Shown here piece after piece: positions 25,037 to 55,182 of a stretch of 56,411 nucleotides of DNA. This stretch comes from a virus. The stretch spans positions 5,196 through 61,606 of the IMG/VR virus record IMGVR_UViG_3300010389_000014. One strand, written 5' to 3'. Below the pieces are notes generated by a model, which did not search any database, was not told the origin of the DNA, and saw nothing but the letters and a program-made list of their open reading frames with translations. How positions within the stretch are numbered: the stretch's first letter is position 1; each line of letters begins with the position of its first letter. The position numbers were made by a program, and so were the translations under genes.

Positions 25037-25540
25037 ATGAAGAATACACTCAAGCTATACGGCAACAAGCATCTGAAGAACCCCACCCAGTCGGTAACTA
25101 CCTTTGGTACGACAAGCATTTCTTTGGCTGAGCGTCTCCGCGCAAAGTGCCGACAACACAATGGTTTAGGCTTAGCAGCTAACCAATTGGGATTTCAGGA
25201 ATCGGCTTTTACCTTCTTGCATGAAGGCGAACTGAAAATGGCGTTTAACCCTCTGTTGAAAGATATAGAGGGTTACGTCCTTATGAGAGAGGGTTGTCTT
25301 TCTTTCCCCGGAATGTATTACGACATAGGGCGTGCAGAACTATGTGTGATAGCCGCCCAAGACGAATATGGCGACAGTTACGAGTTAGAGCTGAAAGGGT
25401 GGCCAGCCCGTTGTGTTCAGCATGAGAGTGAGCATCTACTTGGTGTTACTATGTTAGATAAGTTAAATGACGTACAACTAAAGGACTTTAGATTACGATG
25501 GCCAAAGAAAAGATCAGAGTATTTATCTCAACAACGATAG
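25037..25540 (+). CDS. def: Peptide deformylase
   Basis: 167 residues. All three metal-site motifs: GLGLAANQLG, EGCLSFPG (Cys ligand) and QHESEHLLG (HExxH). Removes the formyl group from new proteins. Phage versions are short, as here, with little C-terminal extension. Encoding its own enzyme may secure maturation of abundant phage proteins. The ATG has only a weak ribosome site. Confidence 0.92.
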   Translation: MKNTLKLYGNKHLKNPTQSVTTFGTTSISLAERLRAKCRQHNGLGLAANQLGFQESAFTFLHEGELKMAFNPLLKDIEGYVLMREGCLSFPGMYYDIGRAELCVIAAQDEYGDSYELELKGWPARCVQHESEHLLGVTMLDKLNDVQLKDFRLRWPKKRSEYLSQQR

Positions 25541-27460: not shown

Positions 27461-27572
27461 GTGAGACTATGTAAGTCTCAATGGAGCCTTAACGTGCCCA
27501 CCGGGGTACGGGTTTCCATCAATTACATGCAGGATATCCCTGTGTGTACATATGTCCTGAGGAGGACCAATA
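27461..27572 (+). promoter_or_regulatory. RNA leader of first array gene (three hairpins)
   Basis: TGAGACT/AGTCTCA hairpin, then a GAGCC...GGTTTCC hairpin resembling the long element found after later genes, then CAGG-ATATC-CCTG, then the SD hairpin GTCCT-GAGG-AGGAC (27554-27567) directly before the start. Confidence 0.55.
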
Positions 27573-27668
27573 ATGAACACCTTCACCGCCTACATGATCA
27601 TCGTCACCGCTCTGCTCACCTTCGTGGCATGGGTGCTGGAGCAGCTGGCCTCACTGCCCCTGCTGTAA
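27573..27668 (+). CDS. 31-residue single-span membrane peptide
   Basis: One hydrophobic helix (AYMIIVTALLTFVAWVLEQL) and almost nothing else. ATG follows the SD hairpin by 5 bases. First of a series of tiny genes. A similar-sized single-span protein lies at 36786. Confidence 0.55.
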   Translation: MNTFTAYMIIVTALLTFVAWVLEQLASLPLL

Positions 27669-27685
27669 TAGGTAGAGAGCTGTAG

Positions 27686-27792
27686 GTACATAGGACTACC
27701 CGCCAATGCGACTGGTGGGTGGTCTTGTTGTGCTTATACGCACATGCATATGGGAGATACCCATGTGTATACATGATACCTAGGAGGGTATT
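27686..27792 (+). promoter_or_regulatory. Intergenic RNA module 1: long hairpin, second hairpin, SD hairpin
   Basis: Long hairpin 27686-27733 (outer GTACA/TGTGC, inner 14 bp, loop with AATGCGAC), second hairpin ATGGG-AGATA-CCCAT, SD hairpin ATACC-TAGGAG-GGTAT (27776-27791). Confidence 0.7.
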
Positions 27793-27984
27793 ATGGCAAT
27801 TACCATCAACGTGATGGAGGTGGACGAGAGTGATCTCGACGCCCTCATCACCATGGCAGAAGCGGTCCTTACACAGGATCGTACCTTTGCCCTTGATGAT
27901 GTCCACTTCTCTGATGAGGAGTGGGCGCAGCATCGGTCCAACGTGCGTTGGGCTGAATGGTTGCTGTCCGTAACAGGTCAGTAA
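27793..27984 (+). CDS. Small acidic protein, paralogue of 30495 gene
   Basis: 63 residues. The C-terminal half VHFSDEEWAQHRSNVRWAEWLL aligns with VVLTDAQWEAHLVDYAWAQEVL of the gene at 30495, so the two derive from a duplicated unit. Helical, tryptophan-rich. Unknown function. Confidence 0.65.
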   Translation: MAITINVMEVDESDLDALITMAEAVLTQDRTFALDDVHFSDEEWAQHRSNVRWAEWLLSVTGQ

Positions 27985-27994
27985 TCAGCTGTAG

Positions 27995-28103
27995 GTACAG
28001 CGTAGCCTCATCGCCCATAAGGGTGGTGGGGCTATCTGTGCTTATTAGGCACATGCGTACGTGATATCCACGTGCGTGTATACATGATACCTAGGAGGGT
28101 ATT
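27995..28103 (+). promoter_or_regulatory. Intergenic RNA module 2
   Basis: Long hairpin 27995-28041 (GTACAG/CTGTGC, then AGCCTCATCGCCC with GGGTGGTGGGGCT), second hairpin ACGTG-ATATC-CACGT, SD hairpin ATACC-TAGGAG-GGTAT (28087-28102). Confidence 0.7.
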
Positions 28104-28313
28104 ATGCGTATTACCGACCTTACCATCGGTGACGTGTTCGAGGATGCCATCAACGGCATCGATGTGCGTAGGGTGGCACTGTCTACCCCTCGTACTGTCG
28201 ACACGTGGACCACTGTGAGGGTGGCTGAGTCCTATGGACCTGGCCATCGTGGAGTGCATCATCACTCCCTCACAGTGTCATCCACTACAGAGGTCAGCTT
28301 GACCAGTCTGTAG
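28104..28313 (+). CDS. Small hypothetical protein
   Basis: 69 residues, Thr/Val/Ser-rich, beta-like (VDTWTTVRVAESYGPGHRG). Its TAG stop is the TAG in the GTAGGTACAG that opens the next long hairpin, so gene end and RNA element overlap. No family recognised. Confidence 0.6.
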   Translation: MRITDLTIGDVFEDAINGIDVRRVALSTPRTVDTWTTVRVAESYGPGHRGVHHHSLTVSSTTEVSLTSL

Positions 28314-28418
28314 GTACAGCGTAGCCTCATCGCACACATGTGTGATGGGGCTATCTGTGCTTATTAGGCACATGCATACACAACACCGTGTATGTGGTAC
28401 ACGTCCTTAGGAGGACAC
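28314..28418 (+). promoter_or_regulatory. Intergenic RNA module 3
   Basis: Long hairpin 28314-28360 (GTACAG/CTGTGC; inner AGCCTCATCGCACA with TGTGTGATGGGGCT), second hairpin CATACAC/GTGTATG, SD hairpin GTCCT-TAGG-AGGAC (28403-28416). Confidence 0.7.
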
Positions 28419-28541
28419 ATGGCCAAGACTATGGCCCAGTACAGCATCATGATTACCGTCATGGTGGTCATCATGATCATTGTGATCAATGCCCTTGCGG
28501 GTATCGATTGCACCGGTGAGTTCGGTGAGGTGATGTGCTGA
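28419..28541 (+). CDS. 40-residue membrane peptide ending GEVMC
   Basis: Hydrophobic Met/Ile/Val helix (ITVMVVIMIIVINALAG) then TGEFGEVMC. The same end, VGEVMC, followed by the same overlapping start, occurs at 30325-30423, though the N-termini differ. Stop and next start overlap (TGATG). Confidence 0.5.
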   Translation: MAKTMAQYSIMITVMVVIMIIVINALAGIDCTGEFGEVMC

Positions 28542-28600
28542 TGTCCCGCATCATGAACAAGTACCGTATGTGGCGTCTCAACCACATGCTTGGCTTCTAG
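28541..28600 (+). CDS. 19-residue microprotein, YRMWRL family
   Basis: MSRIMNKYRMWRLNHMLGF. Overlaps the previous stop by one base (TGATG). The second copy at 30423 is MITKAINRYRMWRLSYMLGF: 10 of the last 12 residues are identical although the DNA has changed at synonymous sites, which argues for a translated product. Basic, amphipathic. Confidence 0.5.
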   Translation: MSRIMNKYRMWRLNHMLGF

Positions 28601-28616
28601 GAGCTGTAGTACCACA

Positions 28617-28700
28617 GTAGTGCAGCCCGGTGTCTGATAACACCCTGAGCAGCCCCTTCACAGGGGACGGTTTATGCAGGTTCGAATCCTGTCTGCTCTA
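28617..28700 (+). ncRNA. tRNA-like structure 1
   Basis: Hairpin GGTGT-CTGATA-ACACC (28629-28644), then 5' strand GAGCAG (28647-28652), a CCCCT/AGGGG hairpin, a canonical T-arm GCAGG-TTCGAAT-CCTGT (28676-28692) and the 3' strand CTGCTC (28693-28698) stacked directly on it. No D-arm or usable anticodon arm. Followed by a second hairpin (CCACAGA/TCTGTGG) and SD hairpin GTATCC-AGGA-GGATAC (28732-28747). Confidence 0.65.
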
Positions 28701-28749
28701 CGATCCACAGATAACACTGTCTGTGGTGACAGTATCCAGGAGGATACAT

Positions 28750-29028
28750 ATGGCTAAGGCCAGCGGTAAGGACTCCGCTAAAAAGTCCAACAGCAAGTGC
28801 CCAGCCCTAAACGATGGCCCCATTCAGGGTGATCATCACTGGGTGGTTAGCGAAGATGTTGTCCTTGAGGATGACGCCTTCGTTAAGAGCGGGTTCACCT
28901 CCACTCACTGCACCGAATGTGGTGAAGTCAAGATCGAAGAATACAACTTCGGTCGCTCGCTGGCCATGGAGGCGGATATGATGGGAATCCCCATCCAGGA
29001 ACTGCAGCCCCCGGAAGAGGATCTGTAA
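28750..29028 (+). CDS. Acidic protein with CxxC motif
   Basis: 92 residues. Lys/Ser-rich start (KASGKDSAKKSNSKCP), then HHWVVSEDVVLEDDAF and STHCTECGEVKIEEY; with the first Cys and His residues this could bind one zinc. Ends very acidic. ATG is 2 bases after the SD hairpin. Overlaps the next gene start (TAATG). Confidence 0.6.
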   Translation: MAKASGKDSAKKSNSKCPALNDGPIQGDHHWVVSEDVVLEDDAFVKSGFTSTHCTECGEVKIEEYNFGRSLAMEADMMGIPIQELQPPEEDL

Positions 29029-29195
29029 TGTTTACCCGCAGCGAGCTTGCCACCCTTGCCGATCATCCCAAAGAGGGATTCGGTGTTTACACGGAGTTGA
29101 CTGATGGCCTTGCCTCCACGGAAGACTACCCTTCTCGGGGTCGTTTTCCTGATCGGGCGACGTACACCAGCAATCCCTACATCCTTCGGGATTAG
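29028..29195 (+). CDS. Small hypothetical protein
   Basis: 55 residues, MFTRSELATLADHPKEGFGVY...; start overlaps the previous stop by one base, SD GGAAGAGGA. Rich in aromatic and charged residues, no motif recognised. Followed at once by tRNA-like structure 2. Confidence 0.55.
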   Translation: MFTRSELATLADHPKEGFGVYTELTDGLASTEDYPSRGRFPDRATYTSNPYILRD

Positions 29196-29198
29196 ACC

Positions 29199-29280
29199 GT
29201 AGTGCAGCCCGGTGTCTGATAACACCCTGAGCAGTAGCTGGTTGCTACGTAATAGAGGTTCGATCCCTCTTGCTCTACGA
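29199..29280 (+). ncRNA. tRNA-like structure 2
   Basis: Same 5' hairpin GGTGT-CTGATA-ACACC, then GAGCA (29229-29233), hairpin GTAGC-TGGTT-GCTAC, T-arm AGAGG-TTCGATC-CCTCT (29254-29270) and TGCTC (29271-29275). T-stem differs from copy 1 at several paired positions. Followed by hairpin CCATAGA/TTTATGG and SD hairpin 29308-29329 (ATATGTCCT with AGGATATAT). Confidence 0.65.
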
Positions 29281-29339
29281 TCCATAGACAACCCCGTTTA
29301 TGGTGACATATGTCCTAAGGAGGATATATAAGCAATACC

Positions 29340-29540
29340 ATGACCACATTCATCCCCTCCCCCCACGAGGTGTTCTACCTCATCGGAAGGAGGGATCGTG
29401 ATTGGGCCCTGGTCGAGGTCGTGGCGGTGCAGGACAGCACCATCACGGTCGTCGACATGGCCAAAGGTCTTTCCTCGCGGGAGACCATCACCGTCGATCT
29501 CACCGATACCTGGTGGGATCTGAAGCCCTACATCCGGTAG
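29340..29540 (+). CDS. Small beta-rich protein
   Basis: 66 residues, MTTFIPSPHEVFYLIGRRD... VVDMAKGLSSRETITVDL ... WWDLKPYIR. Looks like a small beta-barrel. The ATG is unusually far (16 bases) from AGGAGG of the SD hairpin; there is no nearer start codon in frame. Stop TAG lies within the next long hairpin's GTAGGTACAG. Confidence 0.55.
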   Translation: MTTFIPSPHEVFYLIGRRDRDWALVEVVAVQDSTITVVDMAKGLSSRETITVDLTDTWWDLKPYIR

Positions 29541-29660
29541 GTACAGGGCGAGCCTGTCAGTCAATGCGACTGTCTGACAGGTTCCCCTGTGTTTATTGGC
29601 AACAATATCACAGCATGCAGAAAATCTGCGTGCAGCAAATGTCCAAAGGAGGACACAGCA
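29541..29660 (+). promoter_or_regulatory. Intergenic RNA module 4
   Basis: Long hairpin 29541-29592 (GTACAGGG/CCCTGTGT, inner GAGCCTGTCAG with CTGACAGGTTC, loop containing AATGCGAC), second hairpin GCATGCAG/CTGCGTGC, SD hairpin TGTCC-AAAGGA-GGACA (29640-29655). Confidence 0.75.
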
Positions 29661-29954
29661 ATGCGTAAGCCCAGTGAAGCCAAGTCCAGGTTCGTCTACT
29701 TCTGGTTGTTCCCGTCCAGTGCGGTGCGCAACAAGAAGGTCCGGCGTTCCCTGTACGTCTTGACGTTCGTCATGAACTACTACCGGTTCATGAAGGCGTT
29801 CGACCAGGAAGAGAAGGAGGCCCGTGCTCAGGTGATCTTCGATCGTCAGCGCAGCCTCCACCTCTCCCTGGTGGACCACGCCATCGAGAACGATCGTGTC
29901 GTCTACAAGGCGACGGACGATGCGTTCCTCCGGTCCATCGGGATCGAGAGCTGA
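29661..29954 (+). CDS. Basic protein, duplicated gene copy A
   Basis: 97 residues: basic aromatic N-terminus (SRFVYFWLFPSSAVRNKKVRR), then a charged helix (FDQEEKEARAQVIFDRQRS) and a conserved tail FLRSIGIES. Paralogue at 31095. The N-terminal halves differ in DNA and protein, while ~190 bp covering the second half and beyond are identical. Confidence 0.65.
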   Translation: MRKPSEAKSRFVYFWLFPSSAVRNKKVRRSLYVLTFVMNYYRFMKAFDQEEKEARAQVIFDRQRSLHLSLVDHAIENDRVVYKATDDAFLRSIGIES

Positions 29955-29994
29955 GATGAGCGTCACGCAATCCAACAATCAGAAAGAAGGTACC

Positions 29995-30222
29995 ATGACC
30001 ATCAACACCTGCGTCATCTGCGGAGGTGGACCCATGTTCACCACCCTCTGCCCCCATCTCTGCAGCGACGGAGATCACATCGTGGGAATGGAGGTGCTCA
30101 ACAGGGATGGTAAGCCCGAGGCCTACATCTTCATCCCGCCGGACGCCAATCCCACCGAGTGGGTCAGCAACCACGTCCAGGTTCCCGATGGGTTCACCTC
30201 CCGTTGGGTCTATCTTTCGTAG
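29995..30222 (+). CDS. Small Cys/His protein
   Basis: 75 residues: TCVICGGGPMFTTLCPHLCSDGDH would hold one or two zinc ions; the rest is beta-like (EAYIFIPPDANPTEWV). Start at 29995 has AGAAAGAAGG upstream. It occupies the same place relative to gene copy A as the SLOG gene does to copy B. Confidence 0.6.
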   Translation: MTINTCVICGGGPMFTTLCPHLCSDGDHIVGMEVLNRDGKPEAYIFIPPDANPTEWVSNHVQVPDGFTSRWVYLS

Positions 30223-30324
30223 ATAGGGGACGAGCCCGTCAGTCAATACGATTGGCGGGTTCTCCTGTATCTATGGGAAATTCCCATAGCTCTACAACAA
30301 CAACGTCCAAAGGAGGACACAGTA
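30221..30324 (+). promoter_or_regulatory. Intergenic RNA module 5
   Basis: Long hairpin 30221-30272 (AGATA/TATCT, then GAGCCCGTCAGTC with GATTGGCGGGTTC), short hairpin ATGGGA-AAT-TCCCAT, SD hairpin GTCC/GGAC (30305-30318). Confidence 0.7.
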
Positions 30325-30423
30325 ATGCGCAAGTTCAACATCAAGGCCATCGCTGCTGCTGCCAAGGAGGCTGCACAGGACCAGGTCATCGAGGTTCGTG
30401 AGGTCGGTGAGGTGATGTGCTGA
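30325..30423 (+). CDS. 32-residue peptide ending VGEVMC
   Basis: MRKFNIKAIAAAAKEAAQDQ... VREVGEVMC. The C-terminus and the TGATG overlap with the next microprotein repeat the arrangement at 28419-28600; the N-terminal half is different (soluble here, membrane there). Suggests the tail, or the RNA encoding it, is what is conserved. Confidence 0.5.
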   Translation: MRKFNIKAIAAAAKEAAQDQVIEVREVGEVMC

Positions 30424-30485
30424 TGATCACCAAGGCCATCAACCGCTACCGCATGTGGCGCCTCAGCTACATGCTCGGCTTCTAA
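30423..30485 (+). CDS. 20-residue microprotein, YRMWRL family copy 2
   Basis: MITKAINRYRMWRLSYMLGF, paralogue of the peptide at 28541. Its last codons (GGC TTC TAA) form the 5' strand of the hairpin that holds the next gene's SD, so ribosomes finishing here would open that hairpin. Confidence 0.5.
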   Translation: MITKAINRYRMWRLSYMLGF

Positions 30486-30494
30486 GGAGGAAGC
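30478..30494 (+). promoter_or_regulatory. SD hairpin overlapping a stop codon
   Basis: GCTTC-TAAGGAG-GAAGC immediately before ATG at 30495. The loop carries both the stop TAA of the microprotein and AGGAG. Confidence 0.6.
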
Positions 30495-30647
30495 ATGGAA
30501 AAGGTAGACCGTATTGCACGTGCTCACTACATCGTTCTTCGTAACGAACGGTGGGCTCAATCCGATGTGGTTCTCACTGATGCACAGTGGGAGGCGCATC
30601 TTGTGGATTACGCCTGGGCACAAGAGGTGCTCGCCAAAGAGGCTTAA
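30495..30647 (+). CDS. Small Trp-rich protein, paralogue of 27793 gene
   Basis: 50 residues, MEKVDRIARAHYIVLRNERW...; shares the DxxWxxH...WA.E.L pattern with the gene at 27793. Probably translationally coupled to the microprotein upstream. Function unknown. Confidence 0.6.
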   Translation: MEKVDRIARAHYIVLRNERWAQSDVVLTDAQWEAHLVDYAWAQEVLAKEA

Positions 30648-30656
30648 TCCCCCACA

Positions 30657-30727
30657 GTAGTACAGCCTAGTGTCTGATAACACTCGGGTGAGTAGCACAC
30701 ATACAGGTGCGAGTCCTGTACACCCAC
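30657..30727 (+). ncRNA. tRNA-like structure 3
   Basis: Hairpin AGTGT-CTGATA-ACACT, then GGGTG (30686-30690), a 12-base spacer, T-arm ACAGG-TGCGAGT-CCTGT (30703-30719) and CACCC (30721-30725). Compared with copies 1 and 2 the first hairpin and the acceptor-like stem changed on both strands (GAGCA/TGCTC to GGGTG/CACCC), so pairing is conserved, not sequence. Followed by hairpin ATAGCA/TGCTAT and SD hairpin GTACC-TAGGA-GGTAC (30759-30773). Confidence 0.65.
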
Positions 30728-30779
30728 GCTATAGCAACACTGCTATATGCAACAACCCGTACCTAGGAGGTACACAGCA

Positions 30780-30986
30780 ATGGCTACCAACATCAACGAC
30801 AAGTACTTCTCCACCGTGGAGGAGAACGTGCCCTTCAGCTCCAAGGTGTTCACCATCGACCACATCATCAGCCACTCCACGGGTGTGGCCCTGAGGATGG
30901 AGGCGCTGGGGGCCAAGAAGCTGGCTCTGCTGGCATGGACCGAGGTGTTCCTCGCCCGTGCCCACAAGGACGGCATCAACAGCTGA
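30780..30986 (+). CDS. Small hypothetical protein
   Basis: 68 residues, MATNINDKYFSTVEENVPF... then a long helix (TGVALRMEALGAKKLALLAWTE split by no Pro). Start 6 bases after the SD hairpin. No family recognised. Confidence 0.6.
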   Translation: MATNINDKYFSTVEENVPFSSKVFTIDHIISHSTGVALRMEALGAKKLALLAWTEVFLARAHKDGINS

Positions 30987-31012
30987 TCCTACTCTACTGT
31001 AGGTACAGCATG

Positions 31013-31094
31013 AGCCCGTCAGCCTATGAGGTTGGCGGGTTCTTCTGTACTTATGGGAAACTCCCATTTGTACTGTCCAAAGGAGGACACAGCA
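31013..31094 (+). promoter_or_regulatory. Intergenic RNA module 6
   Basis: Long hairpin 31013-31050 (GTACAG/CTGTAC, inner GAGCCCGTCAGCC with GGTTGGCGGGTTC), short hairpin ATGGGA-AAC-TCCCAT, SD hairpin TGTCC-AAAGGA-GGACA (31074-31089). Confidence 0.75.
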
Positions 31095-31388
31095 ATGCGC
31101 AAGCCCAGTGAAGCCAGGTCCAAGTTCGTCTACTTCTGGCTCTTCCCGTCCAGCACGGTGAAGAACAAGAAGGTTCGGCGGTCGCTGTACCTGGCGACTC
31201 TCATCATCAACGGCCTTCGTTTCGCCAAGGCGTTCGACCAGGAAGAGAAGGAGGCCCGTGCTCAGGTGATCTTCGATCGTCAGCGCAGCCTCCACCTCTC
31301 CCTGGTGGACCACGCCATCGAGAACGATCGTGTCGTCTACAAGGCGACGGACGATGCGTTCCTCCGGTCCATCGGGATCGAGAGCTGA
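31095..31388 (+). CDS. Basic protein, duplicated gene copy B
   Basis: 97 residues. N-terminal half differs from copy A (29661) at about one residue in three; from the Lys-Ala-Phe-Asp-Gln on, DNA and protein are identical, continuing past the stop codon for ~25 bp. Leader also belongs to the same module type. Points to gene conversion or recent recombination. Confidence 0.65.
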   Translation: MRKPSEARSKFVYFWLFPSSTVKNKKVRRSLYLATLIINGLRFAKAFDQEEKEARAQVIFDRQRSLHLSLVDHAIENDRVVYKATDDAFLRSIGIES

Positions 31389-31407
31389 GATGAGCGTCAC
31401 GCAATCC

Positions 31408-31434
31408 AACAACAACAACAACAACAACAACAAC
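31408..31434 (+). repeat. (AAC)9 microsatellite
   Basis: Nine AAC units between copy B and the SLOG gene; the equivalent place after copy A has only CAACAATCAG. If the ATG at 31390 is used, it encodes nine Asn. Slippage here could set spacing between genes. Confidence 0.8.
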
Positions 31435-31449
31435 AAGAAAGGCAAGAAC

Positions 31450-32454
31450 ATGCACACTCCGTGCGATTCCCTGACCAAGAAGTCCAACCTGTGCAAGAAC
31501 AACGGATGCTTCACCCTCGTGGTGGAGAACTTCCGTTACAACGTCTGCGGTGTGCACCGTGACCCCGAACTGTTCCGCAAGGGACGCAAGGGTGTTCACG
31601 TCGAACCGCAGCTCATCGAGATGACCGATCAGTCGTCTCCCAAGCCCGTGGACCGTGCCAGTGTCATGGCTGGCATCCCCGGCGTCCGGCGTGCCTCAGA
31701 GCTGCTGGCTTCAATCAATGAGGACGACAACCCCGTCGCCTCGGCATACCTGAACAAGGAAGGAAACACCATGCCCACCATCACCGAGATCCAGGGAGAT
31801 CACGGTCAGACCAGCCCCGACTACGAGGAATTCGTGGCCGACAACCAGGTTCAGGACTTCAAGCTTCTGTGCCTGAGCGGTCACCGTCCCCAGAAGATCG
31901 GGGGATTCAACCCCAACGTCCGGTACTGGGTCGTGTTCCTGGCTCTGCTCGCCAAGGTTCAGGACTTCGTCAAGGCCAACCCGAATCATCAGGTGGTGAT
32001 CGGCTGGGGTGGTGCACTGGGAGTGGACCAGATCGGTGCCGAAGTGGCCAAGCTGCTGGGTCTCCCCCACATCGTGTTCATCCCCATGAAGGGGTTCAAC
32101 GCACCGTGGCCGGACCAGTCGAAGGACTACTTCAACTCCCTCGCCGGTGAATCCGACGAGTACTGGTTGAATCGGGTCATCGAGGAGAGGACTCCGGTGC
32201 ATGTCGCCACCAAGAAGGGTGCGTTGTACGTCAGCGAGCCCGGATACTCCGCGAGCAAGCTCCACAAGCGCAACCACGTCATGGTGGATACCGCCGACGC
32301 CATGCTGTTCCTCTGGGACGGCAGCGACGGAGGCACCAAGGCGTGCTTGAACTACGCGGTCGAGAAGGAGGCCACTCGTGTGATCATTCACACCCGTGAT
32401 CTCCGGATCGATGCCGACGCGAAGTACCTCCACAAGTTGACGGCAGGTCAGTAG
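31450..32454 (+). CDS. SLOG-family protein with N-terminal Cys motif
   Basis: 334 residues. A Cys/His segment (TPCDSLTKKSNLCKNN, then NVCGVHRDPELF) precedes a Rossmann-like SLOG domain: LCLSGHRPQKIGGF (as in YpsA/DUF1273), VIGWGGALGVDQIGAEVAKLLG, and TADAMLFLWDGSDGGTKACL near the end, the GG loops that bind nucleotides. SLOG proteins bind or cut NAD, cyclic or ADP-ribose nucleotides, often in defence. Start at 31450 has GAAAGG 8 bases before; ATG 31390 would add poly-Asn. Confidence 0.75.
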   Translation: MHTPCDSLTKKSNLCKNNGCFTLVVENFRYNVCGVHRDPELFRKGRKGVHVEPQLIEMTDQSSPKPVDRASVMAGIPGVRRASELLASINEDDNPVASAYLNKEGNTMPTITEIQGDHGQTSPDYEEFVADNQVQDFKLLCLSGHRPQKIGGFNPNVRYWVVFLALLAKVQDFVKANPNHQVVIGWGGALGVDQIGAEVAKLLGLPHIVFIPMKGFNAPWPDQSKDYFNSLAGESDEYWLNRVIEERTPVHVATKKGALYVSEPGYSASKLHKRNHVMVDTADAMLFLWDGSDGGTKACLNYAVEKEATRVIIHTRDLRIDADAKYLHKLTAGQ

Positions 32455-32539
32455 GCACATAGAGCTACCGGGCAATGCGACTGTCCGGTGGTTCTGTTGT
32501 GTTTATTAGGCAAATGTCCTAATGCACTAGGAGAGAATC
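32455..32539 (+). promoter_or_regulatory. Intergenic RNA module 7, possible two-state leader
   Basis: Long hairpin 32455-32502 (GCACA/TGTGT, inner ACCGGGC with GTCCGGT, loop AATGCGAC). The SD hairpin TCCTA-ATGCAC-TAGGA (32517-32532) shares its 5' strand with an alternative TTAGG/CCTAA hairpin just upstream, so the SD can be open or closed. Confidence 0.65.
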
Positions 32540-32788
32540 ATGAGCAAGTTCACCAATGCACTGCGCAAGGCTGCCGACAAGGTCGATTCGTTCGACATCG
32601 AGGCAAACAAGGCGAAGGCAAAGGTTCTGGCGGAACAGGCCAAGGCAAAGGCTCTCGAAGGCTACGACAAGGCCGTCGAAGTTTCCGTCGATGCCACTGC
32701 TGAGACCGTCACCTCGACCAAGCGCGCCATCAACACGGTGGCGAACAAGGTCGAAGATCGTACCCGTGGTGAAATCACCACGTTCTGA
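32540..32788 (+). CDS. Small Ala/Lys-rich helical protein
   Basis: 82 residues, helical with Ala/Lys heptads (KAKAKVLAEQAKAKALEGY), no hydrophobic span. Resembles amphipathic coiled-coil or apolipoprotein-like phage proteins. Five bases after TAGGAGAG. Unknown. Confidence 0.6.
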   Translation: MSKFTNALRKAADKVDSFDIEANKAKAKVLAEQAKAKALEGYDKAVEVSVDATAETVTSTKRAINTVANKVEDRTRGEITTF

Positions 32789-32795
32789 TCTGTAG

Positions 32796-32907
32796 GCACA
32801 TCGAGCTACTCCCCTATGCGACAGGGGGGTGGTTCCATTGTGTTTATTGGAGACAATACACAGCTTGTGGGATATTCCTGCATGCAGCAAATGTCCAGGA
32901 GGACAAA
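32796..32907 (+). promoter_or_regulatory. Intergenic RNA module 8
   Basis: Long hairpin 32796-32843 (GCACA/TGTGT, inner ACTCCCCT paired with GGGGGGT), second hairpin TGTGGGA-TAT-TCCTGCA, SD hairpin TGTCC-AGGA-GGACA (32892-32905). Confidence 0.7.
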
Positions 32908-33189
32908 ATGAAGAAGAATATCATCATCACCACAATGGCGCTCACTATCTTGGGTCTCACCAAGATGGTAGAAGAACGTGACCAGGATATCACGTACTAC
33001 AAGAAGCGCTACAAGGAGGAGATGGGGGAGGCGTGCGAATACTACGGCACCCTCAAGGTTCTGGTTGAGCGACTGGATTCGGTCGACCGCAACCCGGACT
33101 CCGATCACAGCCGCCAGGACCTGGCCTATGCCAAGTTCATGGCGAAGGGAACCCTTGACAACAACACCAAGGGTCGCCTGTTCAACTAA
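32908..33189 (+). CDS. Small protein with N-terminal hydrophobic segment
   Basis: 93 residues: MKKNIIITTMALTILGLTKM may be a membrane anchor or signal-like segment, followed by a charged coiled-coil region (EERDQDITYYKKRYKEEMG). Start 2 bases after the SD hairpin. Family unknown. Confidence 0.6.
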   Translation: MKKNIIITTMALTILGLTKMVEERDQDITYYKKRYKEEMGEACEYYGTLKVLVERLDSVDRNPDSDHSRQDLAYAKFMAKGTLDNNTKGRLFN

Positions 33190-33193
33190 GGCG

Positions 33194-33290
33194 AAACACT
33201 CTCCCCTCATTACGGGAGGGTGTCACTGTGGTGTGAGAGACCACGGTCTGAAGAGCCATCTCAAAATGTATCTAGGAAGGATACAACATC
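33194..33290 (+). promoter_or_regulatory. Intergenic RNA module 9
   Basis: Hairpin ACACTCTCCC with GGGAGGGTGT, hairpin GTGGT-GTGAGAG-ACCAC, SD hairpin TGTATC-TAGGAAG-GATACA (33267-33285), then the start at 33291. Confidence 0.65.
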
Positions 33291-35747
33291 ATGCACAACT
33301 TGTGCGGTATGCCCACCAAGGCAGGTACCCCCTGCAAGAACAAGGTCAGCGATGACAAGCTGGCCTGCCACCATCACATCGACTCCGTGTCGAGTGCGGC
33401 TCCCACCGTTCACACAATGACCAAGGAGGGTCAGATGAACACCAATCCCCTATCCGCCAACACCTACCTGTACATGGTGATGACGCTGGACGACTACGGC
33501 ATGCCGTTCGTCAACCGTCGTATCATCACCAACATGGATCACATCCCGATCCTGATGAACCTCAAGGAGGGCGAACACCTCGTCCCCAGCGAGATCGGTG
33601 CGGATTACTCCCCCGCTTTCATGGAGGAGTACTTCGGTGACTCCGGCTACTGGATCGAAATCGTTCCGGTCGCCCTTCAGCCCAAGGTCGAGCAGTACCC
33701 CAACTGCGCAATGGCCTGGGCTGATGAGCAGTCCGCTACCTTCGTGTACCTCGAGGACTACCCTTACTGGGGTGGTATGGAGGCCATCGGAGTGAAGGTT
33801 TCGCCTCACGCGAAGCTCTCCAAGCGCGCCAAGGAGATCACCCGTATCTCCAGGTTCCACCGTCGGTTCGCTGCCGGTGAGATCACGCTCCACATCTTCG
33901 AGCCGGGTGAACACACCGAGTGGTTCGATGGTCAGACATTGGTGCGCCCGTCGTACCTCGCAAAGCTCGGCTACACCCGCAAGGATGTGGCTTACCTTCG
34001 CGAGCACGGCAAGAACGGCTCCTTCCGCCTGACCACCGAGCGCGGGCTCATCAAGGGTGACTTCATCGTTGCACGTAGCGACGACGATCTCCCCTTCGAT
34101 GTGGTCACTTCCCGTGACAACCTCAAGCCCGAGTTCAAGCTCGTGCGTGGCGGTGAAATGTGGGCGTCGTGCTTCCTGCACCACGATCACCACGAGGCCA
34201 CCACGGATGTCCAGACTCTGTCGTGGATCGGTGAGACGCTTCTTCCCAAGGAGCAGCTCAAGACCGCGTTGTACAACGTCGCTTCGGACGTCATGAGTGA
34301 TCTGCGGGAGGGCAACTTCCCTCGGTACATGACCCACTCCGACTTCGACACTGGTGCATACGATGAGGATGATGCTGGTACCATCAACTTCAACCGTACC
34401 ATGTACGATCGTTGGCAGCGGGGTGGTCGTTCTCTCAACGAGAGCGCCTACTTCCTGCACACCATCACGACGGGATTCATCAACCAGATGAAGAAGGGCA
34501 TGAAGTTCCCCATCCCTCACGCGGTGTACGCCCACGTGACCACCCACGAGCTGTTGGAGATGGCTGGCTACAAGGTCAGCGCCTTCGAGGGCAAGTGCTT
34601 CTACCACGAGGCAACGGGTCGGTTCTCCCTCCCCGGAGAGCTGTTCGCCCGCCTCTTCAAGAATCACGGTGGCTGGGATCTGGACGACTCTGTCCGCATC
34701 ATCATCCGTGAGTTCACCGACGGTATCAAGGCTGTGCTCCTCCGTTCACCCAATGCGTGGGGCGAGTACAGCATCGTCGATGTCGATCTGGATTCGCTCC
34801 TCCCGGTGCTTTACAACACCCACGGAGAAATCCCCAAGATGGACATGAGCACCTCGGAGTTCATGGAGCGGGTTCTCGTCATTCACGACGTGGACGCTCA
34901 CGTGACCTACGCAGGTATGCCCGAAGGTGGGCTCGTGATGGAGGATACCTACAGCCCCTCCAGCGCCCAGTCGGTCATCGATGCGATGGCAACCTCCCCT
35001 GGTGTCGGTCCCTGGGCGAACTCCCAGATGGTGTACTACGCCACGAAGGGTTCGTTCCGTCCGGCTCAGCTGGCTCACACCGAAGACGTCGTGGATACGC
35101 TCACGCAGAGCGCCAATCCCGCTGGCTTCGCTGCCATCACCGAGGACATCAACGCCACCTGGCAGGAAATCGCTGTGGGTGGAGTTGTCGAGGAATACTT
35201 CGTCCGTCGTGACGTCCGTGTTCCCGAGAGGATCCGTGAAGGTCTGACCACCAAGCGTGGTTACCTGACGGAGCTGAGTGCTGTCCACCGGGTCATCATG
35301 AACGAGTTCGAGGATCGGGCCAAGCTCGAAGCCCTGGAGCATCGTGTGATCATTCCGGAGCTGATGCAGTTCCAGGTCTCCCCGGAGGCTATGGAATGGG
35401 CCACCAAGGCGATTGCCAAGTACAAGCGTCTCGGTGACAAGGCACCCAAGAGCAAGGAGTTCAAGTTCGCTTCGGTGGGCTCGAAGTTCTTCCCGGGTGC
35501 CTCCCGTGTCCAGCTGTCCCATCACCGCTCGGAGTTCTTCCGTGTCCTCAACCGTCGGATCGTCAAGCACGTGCTCGATGCCCCCAACGGTGAGGAACTC
35601 ATGATCGCTCTCTACCAGCGGTCGGAGTGGAAGCGTCTCCAGAAGGACACCGATGGTGTCGACCGTATCCTGTTCGCCCCGCATTTCAAGGGTGAGCCGT
35701 CGGTCATGGACCTGCTCCTCGCCACGATCAACCGGGTGGCGCAATAG
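33291..35747 (+). CDS. Large early protein with Zn knuckle; DPBB polymerase-like motifs (weak), paralogue of 52309 gene
   Basis: 818 residues. N-terminal CGMPTKAGTPCKN...CHHH is a small zinc motif. An internal start at 33435 has its own SD hairpin (TGACC-AAGGAG-GGTCA, 33418-33433) and would yield 770 residues, so the zinc part may be a separate gene fused by loss of a stop. The body aligns with the 846-residue protein at 52309: VVTSRDNLKPE, HGGWDLDD (~residue 460), RSPNAWGEYSI, RVPERI. HGGxDLDD recalls the GGDLDGD active site of RdRP-type double-psi-barrel RNA polymerases, but one Gly is missing. Codons are strongly C-ending, so high expression is likely. Confidence 0.6.
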   Translation: MHNLCGMPTKAGTPCKNKVSDDKLACHHHIDSVSSAAPTVHTMTKEGQMNTNPLSANTYLYMVMTLDDYGMPFVNRRIITNMDHIPILMNLKEGEHLVPSEIGADYSPAFMEEYFGDSGYWIEIVPVALQPKVEQYPNCAMAWADEQSATFVYLEDYPYWGGMEAIGVKVSPHAKLSKRAKEITRISRFHRRFAAGEITLHIFEPGEHTEWFDGQTLVRPSYLAKLGYTRKDVAYLREHGKNGSFRLTTERGLIKGDFIVARSDDDLPFDVVTSRDNLKPEFKLVRGGEMWASCFLHHDHHEATTDVQTLSWIGETLLPKEQLKTALYNVASDVMSDLREGNFPRYMTHSDFDTGAYDEDDAGTINFNRTMYDRWQRGGRSLNESAYFLHTITTGFINQMKKGMKFPIPHAVYAHVTTHELLEMAGYKVSAFEGKCFYHEATGRFSLPGELFARLFKNHGGWDLDDSVRIIIREFTDGIKAVLLRSPNAWGEYSIVDVDLDSLLPVLYNTHGEIPKMDMSTSEFMERVLVIHDVDAHVTYAGMPEGGLVMEDTYSPSSAQSVIDAMATSPGVGPWANSQMVYYATKGSFRPAQLAHTEDVVDTLTQSANPAGFAAITEDINATWQEIAVGGVVEEYFVRRDVRVPERIREGLTTKRGYLTELSAVHRVIMNEFEDRAKLEALEHRVIIPELMQFQVSPEAMEWATKAIAKYKRLGDKAPKSKEFKFASVGSKFFPGASRVQLSHHRSEFFRVLNRRIVKHVLDAPNGEELMIALYQRSEWKRLQKDTDGVDRILFAPHFKGEPSVMDLLLATINRVAQ

Positions 35748-35764
35748 TCAGCCAGTGATCACCT

Positions 35765-35834
35765 GGGCATGTGAATAAACTGCCCGCTCCGATAAGAAGA
35801 TAATTTAGTTAAGAAGTTTTGTCCTGAGGAGGAC
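35765..35834 (+). promoter_or_regulatory. 11-nt-loop hairpin followed by SD hairpin
   Basis: GGGCA-TGTGAATAAAC-TGCCC (35765-35785), the first copy of the element frequent downstream, then SD hairpin GTCCT-GAGG-AGGAC (35821-35834). This is the only place where both element types meet. Confidence 0.65.
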
Positions 35835-39733: not shown

Positions 39734-40216
39734 TTACGTCGTCACAGCGACGTTAAAAAGATTCTTAGGCTGTGAGCGTCCCCGAGCTTGTCTCGGGGGG
39801 TGAATACCACCTCGCCCTTGCAAAAAACTTAGCATTTATATGCTAATTCAACTGTAACGGTAGCCTTGGCGGGCATAACGTAGGTGAATGAAATTCTACC
39901 TAAATAGGACTAGCCATCCTTGGTAGGCCGGATTTAGTATTGTACCGGTGAAGTCTACGTGCTTCTAACGGCCGGAGGGATTTGATCACCCTCCGGCCCA
40001 TACAAGTTTACCTTAAGTGAGCAATACCCTTATAAAGAAGAAAGCAATATCCTACTATTGGGTGAACAATAGTGCGGACCACTGGGCTTAACAGTGGTGT
40101 AGGATGCAGCGTCCCGTCAGTTGCAAAGCATCCGAACATGTACAGCTGACACAGTCCTGGGCATGACTTAAAACTGTCCCCTTTCTCTAATTTATCCATC
40201 CATCTTCTGGAGTATC
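39734..40216. ncRNA. Structured non-coding region, candidate RNA gene
   Basis: About 480 bases without a gene but full of hairpins: ACGTCG/CGACGT, CCCCGAG/CTCGGGG, TTAGCAT/ATGCTAA, GGCCGGAGGG/CCCTCCGGCC (39970-39998, 10 perfect pairs), CCACTG/CAGTGG, GTCAGTTG/CAGCTGAC, and an 11-nt-loop hairpin GGGCA/TGTCC (40159-40179). CCATCCATC precedes the next gene. Could be a long leader or a trans-acting RNA. Confidence 0.45.
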
Positions 40217-55091: not shown

Positions 55092-55165
55092 GGGGGTGTA
55101 GCTCAGCGGTCAGAGCAGCGAGCCTTATAAGTCGTGTGTCGAGAGTTCGATCCTCTCCACCCCTA
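55092..55165 (+). tRNA. tRNA with irregular anticodon arm (TAT or TTA)
   Basis: Acceptor GGGGGTG/CACCCCT, D-arm GCTC/GAGC, T-arm GAGAG-TTCGATC-CTCTC, discriminator A. The anticodon arm GCGAGCCTTATAAGTCGT has only four good pairs and an 8-base loop, so the anticodon (TAT, Ile, most likely) is unsure and the tRNA may be degenerate. Confidence 0.65.
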
Positions 55166-55182
55166 CTGAGAAAGTGTATTTT

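Follow-up and report, generated by a model that had tools for sequence, protein, structure and literature searches.

The small-gene array of an unclassified phage carries hairpins over its Shine-Dalgarno (SD) sequences whose stems differ almost gene by gene, retain their pairing, and leave the AGGA core of the SD in the loop. The array lies in a 56,411-nucleotide (nt) stretch, here called the window, which makes up the greater part of an IMG/VR virus record 61.6 kb long (IMGVR_UViG_3300010389_000014; G000) encoding a terminase, RecA, an ATP-dependent protease and tail proteins. A 42.8-kb relative (G001; its positions are given as L003), whose RecA is 67% identical to that of G000, has an array of the same kind. 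We consider it probable that each site acts as an SD-display and insulation hairpin that is opened by ribosomes. We regard the structural conclusion as strong and infer the functional one with the help of folding models. All 16 hairpin sequences named in the original prediction are present in the window at the following positions.

27554..27567, plus strand: SD hairpin GTCC(T)-GAGG-(A)GGAC; ATG 27573 downstream
27774..27793, plus strand: SD hairpin ATGATACC-TAGGAG-GGTATTAT, 9-10 base pairs (bp) with G.U pairing; start codon 27793 within the 3' arm
28085..28104, plus strand: SD hairpin with a stem identical to that of the 27774 site; start codon 28104 within the 3' arm
28403..28416, plus strand: SD hairpin GTCCTTAGGAGGAC; ATG 28419 downstream
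28732..28747, plus strand: SD hairpin GTATCC-AGGA-GGATAC; ATG 28750 downstream
29306..29328, plus strand: SD hairpin ATATGTCCT-AAGG-AGGATATAT, 9 bp including one G.U; nearest ATG 29340
29640..29655, plus strand: SD hairpin TGTCC-AAAGGA-GGACA; ATG 29661 downstream
30305..30318, plus strand: SD hairpin GTCC-AAAGGA-GGAC; ATG 30325 downstream
30478..30494, plus strand: SD hairpin GCTTC-TAAGGAG-GAAGC, including the terminal TTC TAA of the upstream gene; ATG 30495 downstream
30759..30773, plus strand: SD hairpin GTACC-TAGGA-GGTAC; ATG 30780 downstream
31074..31089, plus strand: SD hairpin TGTCC-AAAGGA-GGACA; ATG 31095 downstream
32517..32532, plus strand: different-register hairpin TCCTA-ATGCAC-TAGGA, its stem covering the 5' part of the SD; ATG 32540 downstream
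32892..32905, plus strand: SD hairpin TGTCC-AGGA-GGACA; ATG 32908 downstream
33267..33285, plus strand: SD hairpin TGTATC-TAGGAAG-GATACA; ATG 33291 downstream
33418..33433, plus strand: SD hairpin TGACC-AAGGAG-GGTCA; in-frame internal ATG 33435
35821..35834, plus strand: orphan copy of GTCCTGAGGAGGAC, followed by no ATG, GTG or TTG start

At 14 of the 16 sites, a plausible gene has its SD covered by a hairpin of the common form stem-CC-[AAGGA loop]-GG-stem, with a long SD-ATG spacing (~16 nt) at the 29308 site. The other two are weaker: the stem at 32517 is in the different register, and 35821 lacks a convincing gene and lies in surroundings whose minimum-energy fold does not contain the hairpin. 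The claim that nearly every gene of the array is so equipped holds for genes with their own leader, but not for genes that overlap the preceding gene or are coupled to it (28541, 29028, 30424, 31392, 31450) or for the weak-SD site 31771, all of which go without an SD hairpin. SD matches span 6-8 nt in the array, compared with mostly 4-5 nt elsewhere in the genome. The array also contains near-identical duplicate genes (29661-29954 and 31095-31388), each with a TGTCC SD hairpin.

The pairing exceeds what chance provides. When the 16 bases 5' of each SD are shuffled, per-site p values are 0.0045-0.14, and those of the 14 array starts combine to a Fisher p=3.7e-10. A stem of 5 bp or longer occurs at 12 of 20 plus-strand SD starts against 0.78 expected, and at none on the minus strand. 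At 66 start sites outside the array, the mean stem (2.77 versus a null of 2.59) shows no enrichment, where the array was tested from an explicit start list and the rest-of-genome set came from automatic greedy picking of open reading frames. Within G000, these sequence comparisons show the arrangement to be restricted to the array.

Exchanging arms between sites reduces the number of Watson-Crick pairs from the 80 observed to 54.7±4.2, with 0 of 100,000 swaps reaching the observed count; the nine non-redundant stems alone give 42 pairs against 26.8 (6/100,000). Because MAFFT fails to align hairpins by structure, we aligned the arms by their CC/GG core with a constant spacer. In the resulting 19 arm pairs, 94.7% of cells are paired versus 68.4% after shuffling and 17-39% after sliding; anchoring on the core biases the inner pairs toward structure, and the fair test lies in the outer three pairs. 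Cells changed on both sides number 22, where 5.6±1.9 are expected, and such two-sided change is seen at four of the five pair positions. Bias from site selection is limited because the list covers nearly all array genes that have their own leader and a strong SD.

The relative uses the stems GTATCC/GGATAC, GCTTC/GAAGC, TGTCC/GGACA, GATCC/GGATC and GTGA(A)TCC/GGATCAC. At the start orthologous to window 33267, TGTATC/GATACA is replaced by GATCC/GGATC, and both pair; at that of 33418, which is within coding sequence in both phages, TGACC/GGTCA is replaced by GTGA(A)TCC/GGATCAC. GTCC/GGAC at 28403 corresponds to GTATCC/GGATAC at L003 14804, with orthology read from a neighbouring gene for a MWRLNHMLGF-type peptide. 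Covariation in relatives had been set as a check on the original prediction, and the stems at these orthologous starts do differ yet still pair. Its argument that compensatory changes mean selected structure is thus borne out, as pairing is kept despite sequence change both within the array and between the phages. We take this to show, as far as sequence comparison reaches, that stem pairing is under selection in the RNA. Inverted repeats acting at the DNA level as protein sites, or chance pairing near repeated SD leaders, could account for the recurrence of some leader stems (TGTCC three times, GTCC several times, ATACC twice). Such origins fail to explain the strand-specific position on SDs, the G.U pairs in the longest stems, the excess over swaps that non-redundant stems retain, and the compensations in orthologues; they are already disfavoured, and we give them hardly any weight.

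In both phages, one uninterrupted open reading frame has two to three in-frame starts with an SD hairpin at each (L003 16621, 16906, 17074; window 33291, 33435). The later starts, being inside coding sequence, suggest nested isoforms.

The SDs had been described as caged, and here the result is the opposite. At 13 of 14 array starts the stem takes only the last 1-3 SD bases, compared with 41% of random SD-touching stems that reach 5 bp or more. When 150-170 nt are folded, the AGGA core is predicted to be unpaired with a mean probability of 0.92 in the native sequence and 0.42 when only the local pairs surrounding the SD are forbidden, and the value at 23 other SDs of the genome is 0.36 (p=8e-7 against the array). 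Access changes in the same direction at the G001 sites. An RNA thermometer or SD-sequestering element is recognized by an SD core that is paired in the native fold; the predicted native fold leaves it unpaired (0.92). The hairpins thus show, by their sequences, a loop-display register, and in the energy model they increase access to the SD core and prevent its longer-range pairing. This suggests that selection favours keeping the SD open to ribosomes, not hiding it.

In the mechanism that we favour, a fast-folding local stem of 4-6 bp (longer at 27774, 28085 and 29306), differing in sequence almost gene by gene, would close by pairing the final G or GG of a strong SD, leaving the AAGGA core single-stranded in a loop of 3-9 nt. 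The 30S subunit would begin on this loop, and extending SD:anti-SD pairing would then outcompete the stem and free the start codon. Small exchangeable genes would in this way be initiated uniformly and independently of context. Most leaders consist of hairpins in series: first a repeated element, tRNA-like elements or a hammerhead-like ribozyme (all described below), next, usually, a second hairpin, and last the SD hairpin. The folds predict that an SD would be trapped in such leaders if it lacked a hairpin of its own, which is why we read the hairpin as both insulator and presenter of the SD. Predicted in context, the hairpin energies lie in a narrow range, -5.5 to -8.9 kcal/mol at 18 of 20 sites, and are mostly weaker than those of SD:anti-SD duplexes of 7-8 nt (-9.1 to -10.5 kcal/mol with an assumed 16S tail, CCUCCUUU).

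Several points weigh against this mechanism. The gain in access is a folding prediction for naked RNA at 37 °C, which ignores translation, proteins and cotranscriptional folding; it is smaller when all six SD bases are counted (0.62 versus 0.41), and the G001 site L003 15038 is predicted to be poorly accessible (0.28). The 16S tail assumed for the duplex energies may not be that of the host. At 27793 and 28104, the start codon itself is paired in a stem of 9-10 bp (-10.8 to -11.7 kcal/mol). Finally, G001 is the only array-bearing relative found.

Some of these features would fit an attenuator or timing device, whose stem limits initiation until it is opened by ribosomes, temperature, refolding or an upstream ribosome, in the manner of RNA thermometers or of sequestered ribosome-binding sites of the T4 type. 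Pairing takes in the final G or GG and part of the spacer at all sites, the start codon is inside the 9-10 bp stem at 27793 and 28104, and the hairpins at 30478, 33418, L003 15038, 16887 and 17057 lie within upstream reading frames, where coupling is natural for that reason. A demand for coupling, as originally proposed, is accordingly possible at these sites but not elsewhere: at most sites the leaders are long and no upstream ribosome is present. Moreover, the register leaves the SD core unburied, predicted core access falls once local pairing is removed, and the SD:anti-SD duplex is stronger than most stems. For the array as a whole we therefore regard attenuation as unlikely, although 27793 and 28104, with the start codon within a stronger stem, are probably attenuated.

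A protein could also read the loop. An RNA-binding regulator of the CsrA/RsmA kind, recognizing the loop AGGA on any stem, might switch the whole array jointly: CsrA favours short stem-loops, variable in the stem, that present GGA in their apical loop and frequently lie at the SD (PMC7366521), and GGA or AGG is present in every loop here, on stems that vary. In those systems, however, the function is mostly repression by the protein, and CsrA (PF02599) was not found in G000, in G001 or in an unrelated contig with similar hairpins (G002). In addition, the three unrelated phage groups have in common only what pairing with 16S rRNA requires, and we judge such a regulator improbable. Still less do we expect the hairpins to be substrates for a phage or host messenger RNA nuclease that cuts GGAG at ribosome-binding sites in an early shut-off. 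RegB (PF10715) was not found in the 61.6-kb record, and structures generally inhibit it (PMC3014915), although RegB alone is reported to cut efficiently if GGA is unpaired and the following G is constrained (T4 review, PMC3014915). The suggestion that the hairpins shield SDs from such a nuclease is unlikely: no RegB was found in the record, and this geometry is the one that RegB alone is reported to cut well (PMC3014915).

Returning to SD display, the closest known arrangement is the Start Associated Sequence (SAS) of Cluster K mycobacteriophages, a 13-bp element, GGGATAGGAGCCC (Pope 2011, PMC3203893). As in the array, there are 10-20 copies, 3-9 nt 5' of start codons, at right-arm genes with long leaders, and a potential hairpin has the SD in its loop, with an extended element frequently lying upstream; the array likewise places many copies a few nucleotides 5' of starts, over the SD, at non-structural genes with long leaders. 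In contrast to the array stems of 4-9 bp that differ at almost every gene, the SAS has a fixed 3-bp GC stem and a 7-nt loop, and no match to GGGATAGGAGCCC with up to two mismatches is present in the window. The SAS extended element is a 17-bp imperfect inverted repeat 5' of about half of the copies, whereas most array sites are preceded by other repeated hairpin elements of different sequence and layout. The SAS ends are conserved despite having no pairing with 16S rRNA; the authors saw the symmetry, termed the sequence non-palindromic, proposed no hairpin and left the function open (PMC3203893), as it remains in later papers (PMC12699233, PMC11373665). Cluster EF Microbacterium phages have a SAS, GGGAAAGGACCCC, which also bears the SD, has symmetric ends and is present in ten copies accompanied by an upstream extended motif (PMC7302621). 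It folds into a 3-bp hairpin (-3.1) and, unlike the array hairpins, is conserved in sequence. The statement that no such systematic arrangement had been described therefore needs qualifying: the anatomy is shared with the SAS of Clusters K (PMC3203893) and EF (PMC7302621), but their stem is fixed and they had not been read as hairpins.

Compensation can be seen in the SAS as well. Among 110 sites with the ATAGGAG core from seven Cluster K phages, 5 of the 10 changed in both flanks are fully re-paired (permutation p=1e-4), as CGG/CCG, TAC/GTA (5' of the Pixie integrase), TGG/CCA, CAG/CTG and GCC/GGC; one of the five (Aminay 9149) lacks an annotated start at the correct distance. One-sided changes that disrupt the outer pair are also found. 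Predicted core access in four phages is 0.65-0.76 natively and 0.47-0.55 with local pairs forbidden. Two re-paired sites, Pixie (L099) 2520-2538 and Aminay (L130) 31531-31551, imply in-frame starts 15 codons off the annotation, for Pixie gene 38 and Aminay gene 105.

Other systems are more distant. T4-type hairpins that sequester ribosome-binding sites and RNA thermometers also place a hairpin at the translation initiation region, but bury the SD in the stem, whereas the array hairpins keep its core in the loop. In synthetic toehold switches, the SD is in the loop and the start codon in the stem. This layout is matched solely at 27793 and 28104; at most array sites the start codon is free, and no trigger RNA is known. 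The unrelated contig G002, with no more than one weak tail-protein match, has a cluster of similar hairpins in a weaker version (p=0.005).

Structure at ribosome-binding sites is usually regarded as inhibitory. In this array, selection seems to favour a small SD structure at one gene after another, compensated and with the core left open. We tentatively propose, as a possibility that we hold open rather than assert, that SD-display hairpins are a general, repeatedly arisen phage translation module keeping ribosome-binding sites open in heavily structured modular arrays. This would explain the conserved Cluster K SAS ends, unpaired with 16S rRNA and without an explanation since 2011 (PMC3203893). 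The SAS puzzle would become a testable mechanism, and the hairpins would offer a natural model for the design of ribosome-binding sites insulated from context.

Searches placed few sequences beside these. The window DNA and the two largest array/replication-region proteins tried have no match among 50,697 phage records, nor was any match found in the genome contigs searched; scans of viral contigs with the array proteins and the tRNA-like element returned only G001. The structural-region protein A4 matches 26 loci, and of the stretches fetched none except that of G001 has the array or enriched SD hairpins. No Rfam family covers the SD hairpins, most array proteins are without a known domain in Pfam scans, and promoter-like sites in the array are no more frequent than chance.

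Two further repeated RNA elements accompany the array. The first, 3' of array genes, is a long hairpin (TGTAGGYACA...TGTGYTTAT, loop often ATGCGAC) that retains pairing with different arms, is without an Rfam family, and may be a processing or regulatory RNA. The second is tRNA-like, with a conserved GTGTCTGATAACAC hairpin, a T-loop arm (GGTTCGAATCC) and a downstream covarying hairpin CCAYAG../..CTRTGG; its top Rfam match is tRNA-Sec at a sub-threshold 20.7 bits, and it was seen in G000 and G001 only.

Window 27681-27737, 27990-28045, 28309-28364 and 32791-32847; L003 16172-16239 and 16524-16582: long-hairpin element
Near window 29536, 30222, 31001 and 32452: related long-hairpin copies
Window 28618-28705, 29200-29283 and 30657-30730; L003 15213-15300: tRNA-like element

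A Type II hammerhead-like ribozyme candidate (window 33189-33265; 33.7 bits, gathering threshold 37, E=1e-5 for the stretch) sits between genes 32908 and 33291, immediately 5' of the SD hairpin, with the core CUGAAGA in place of CUGAUGA. A Pistol ribozyme at window 39737-39805 scores 66.9 bits, far over threshold. ARAGORN predicts a tRNA with an undetermined two-base anticodon at window 55092-55166, and a phage-encoded peptide deformylase (PF01327, 3e-30) is located at window 25040-25537, just 5' of the array.

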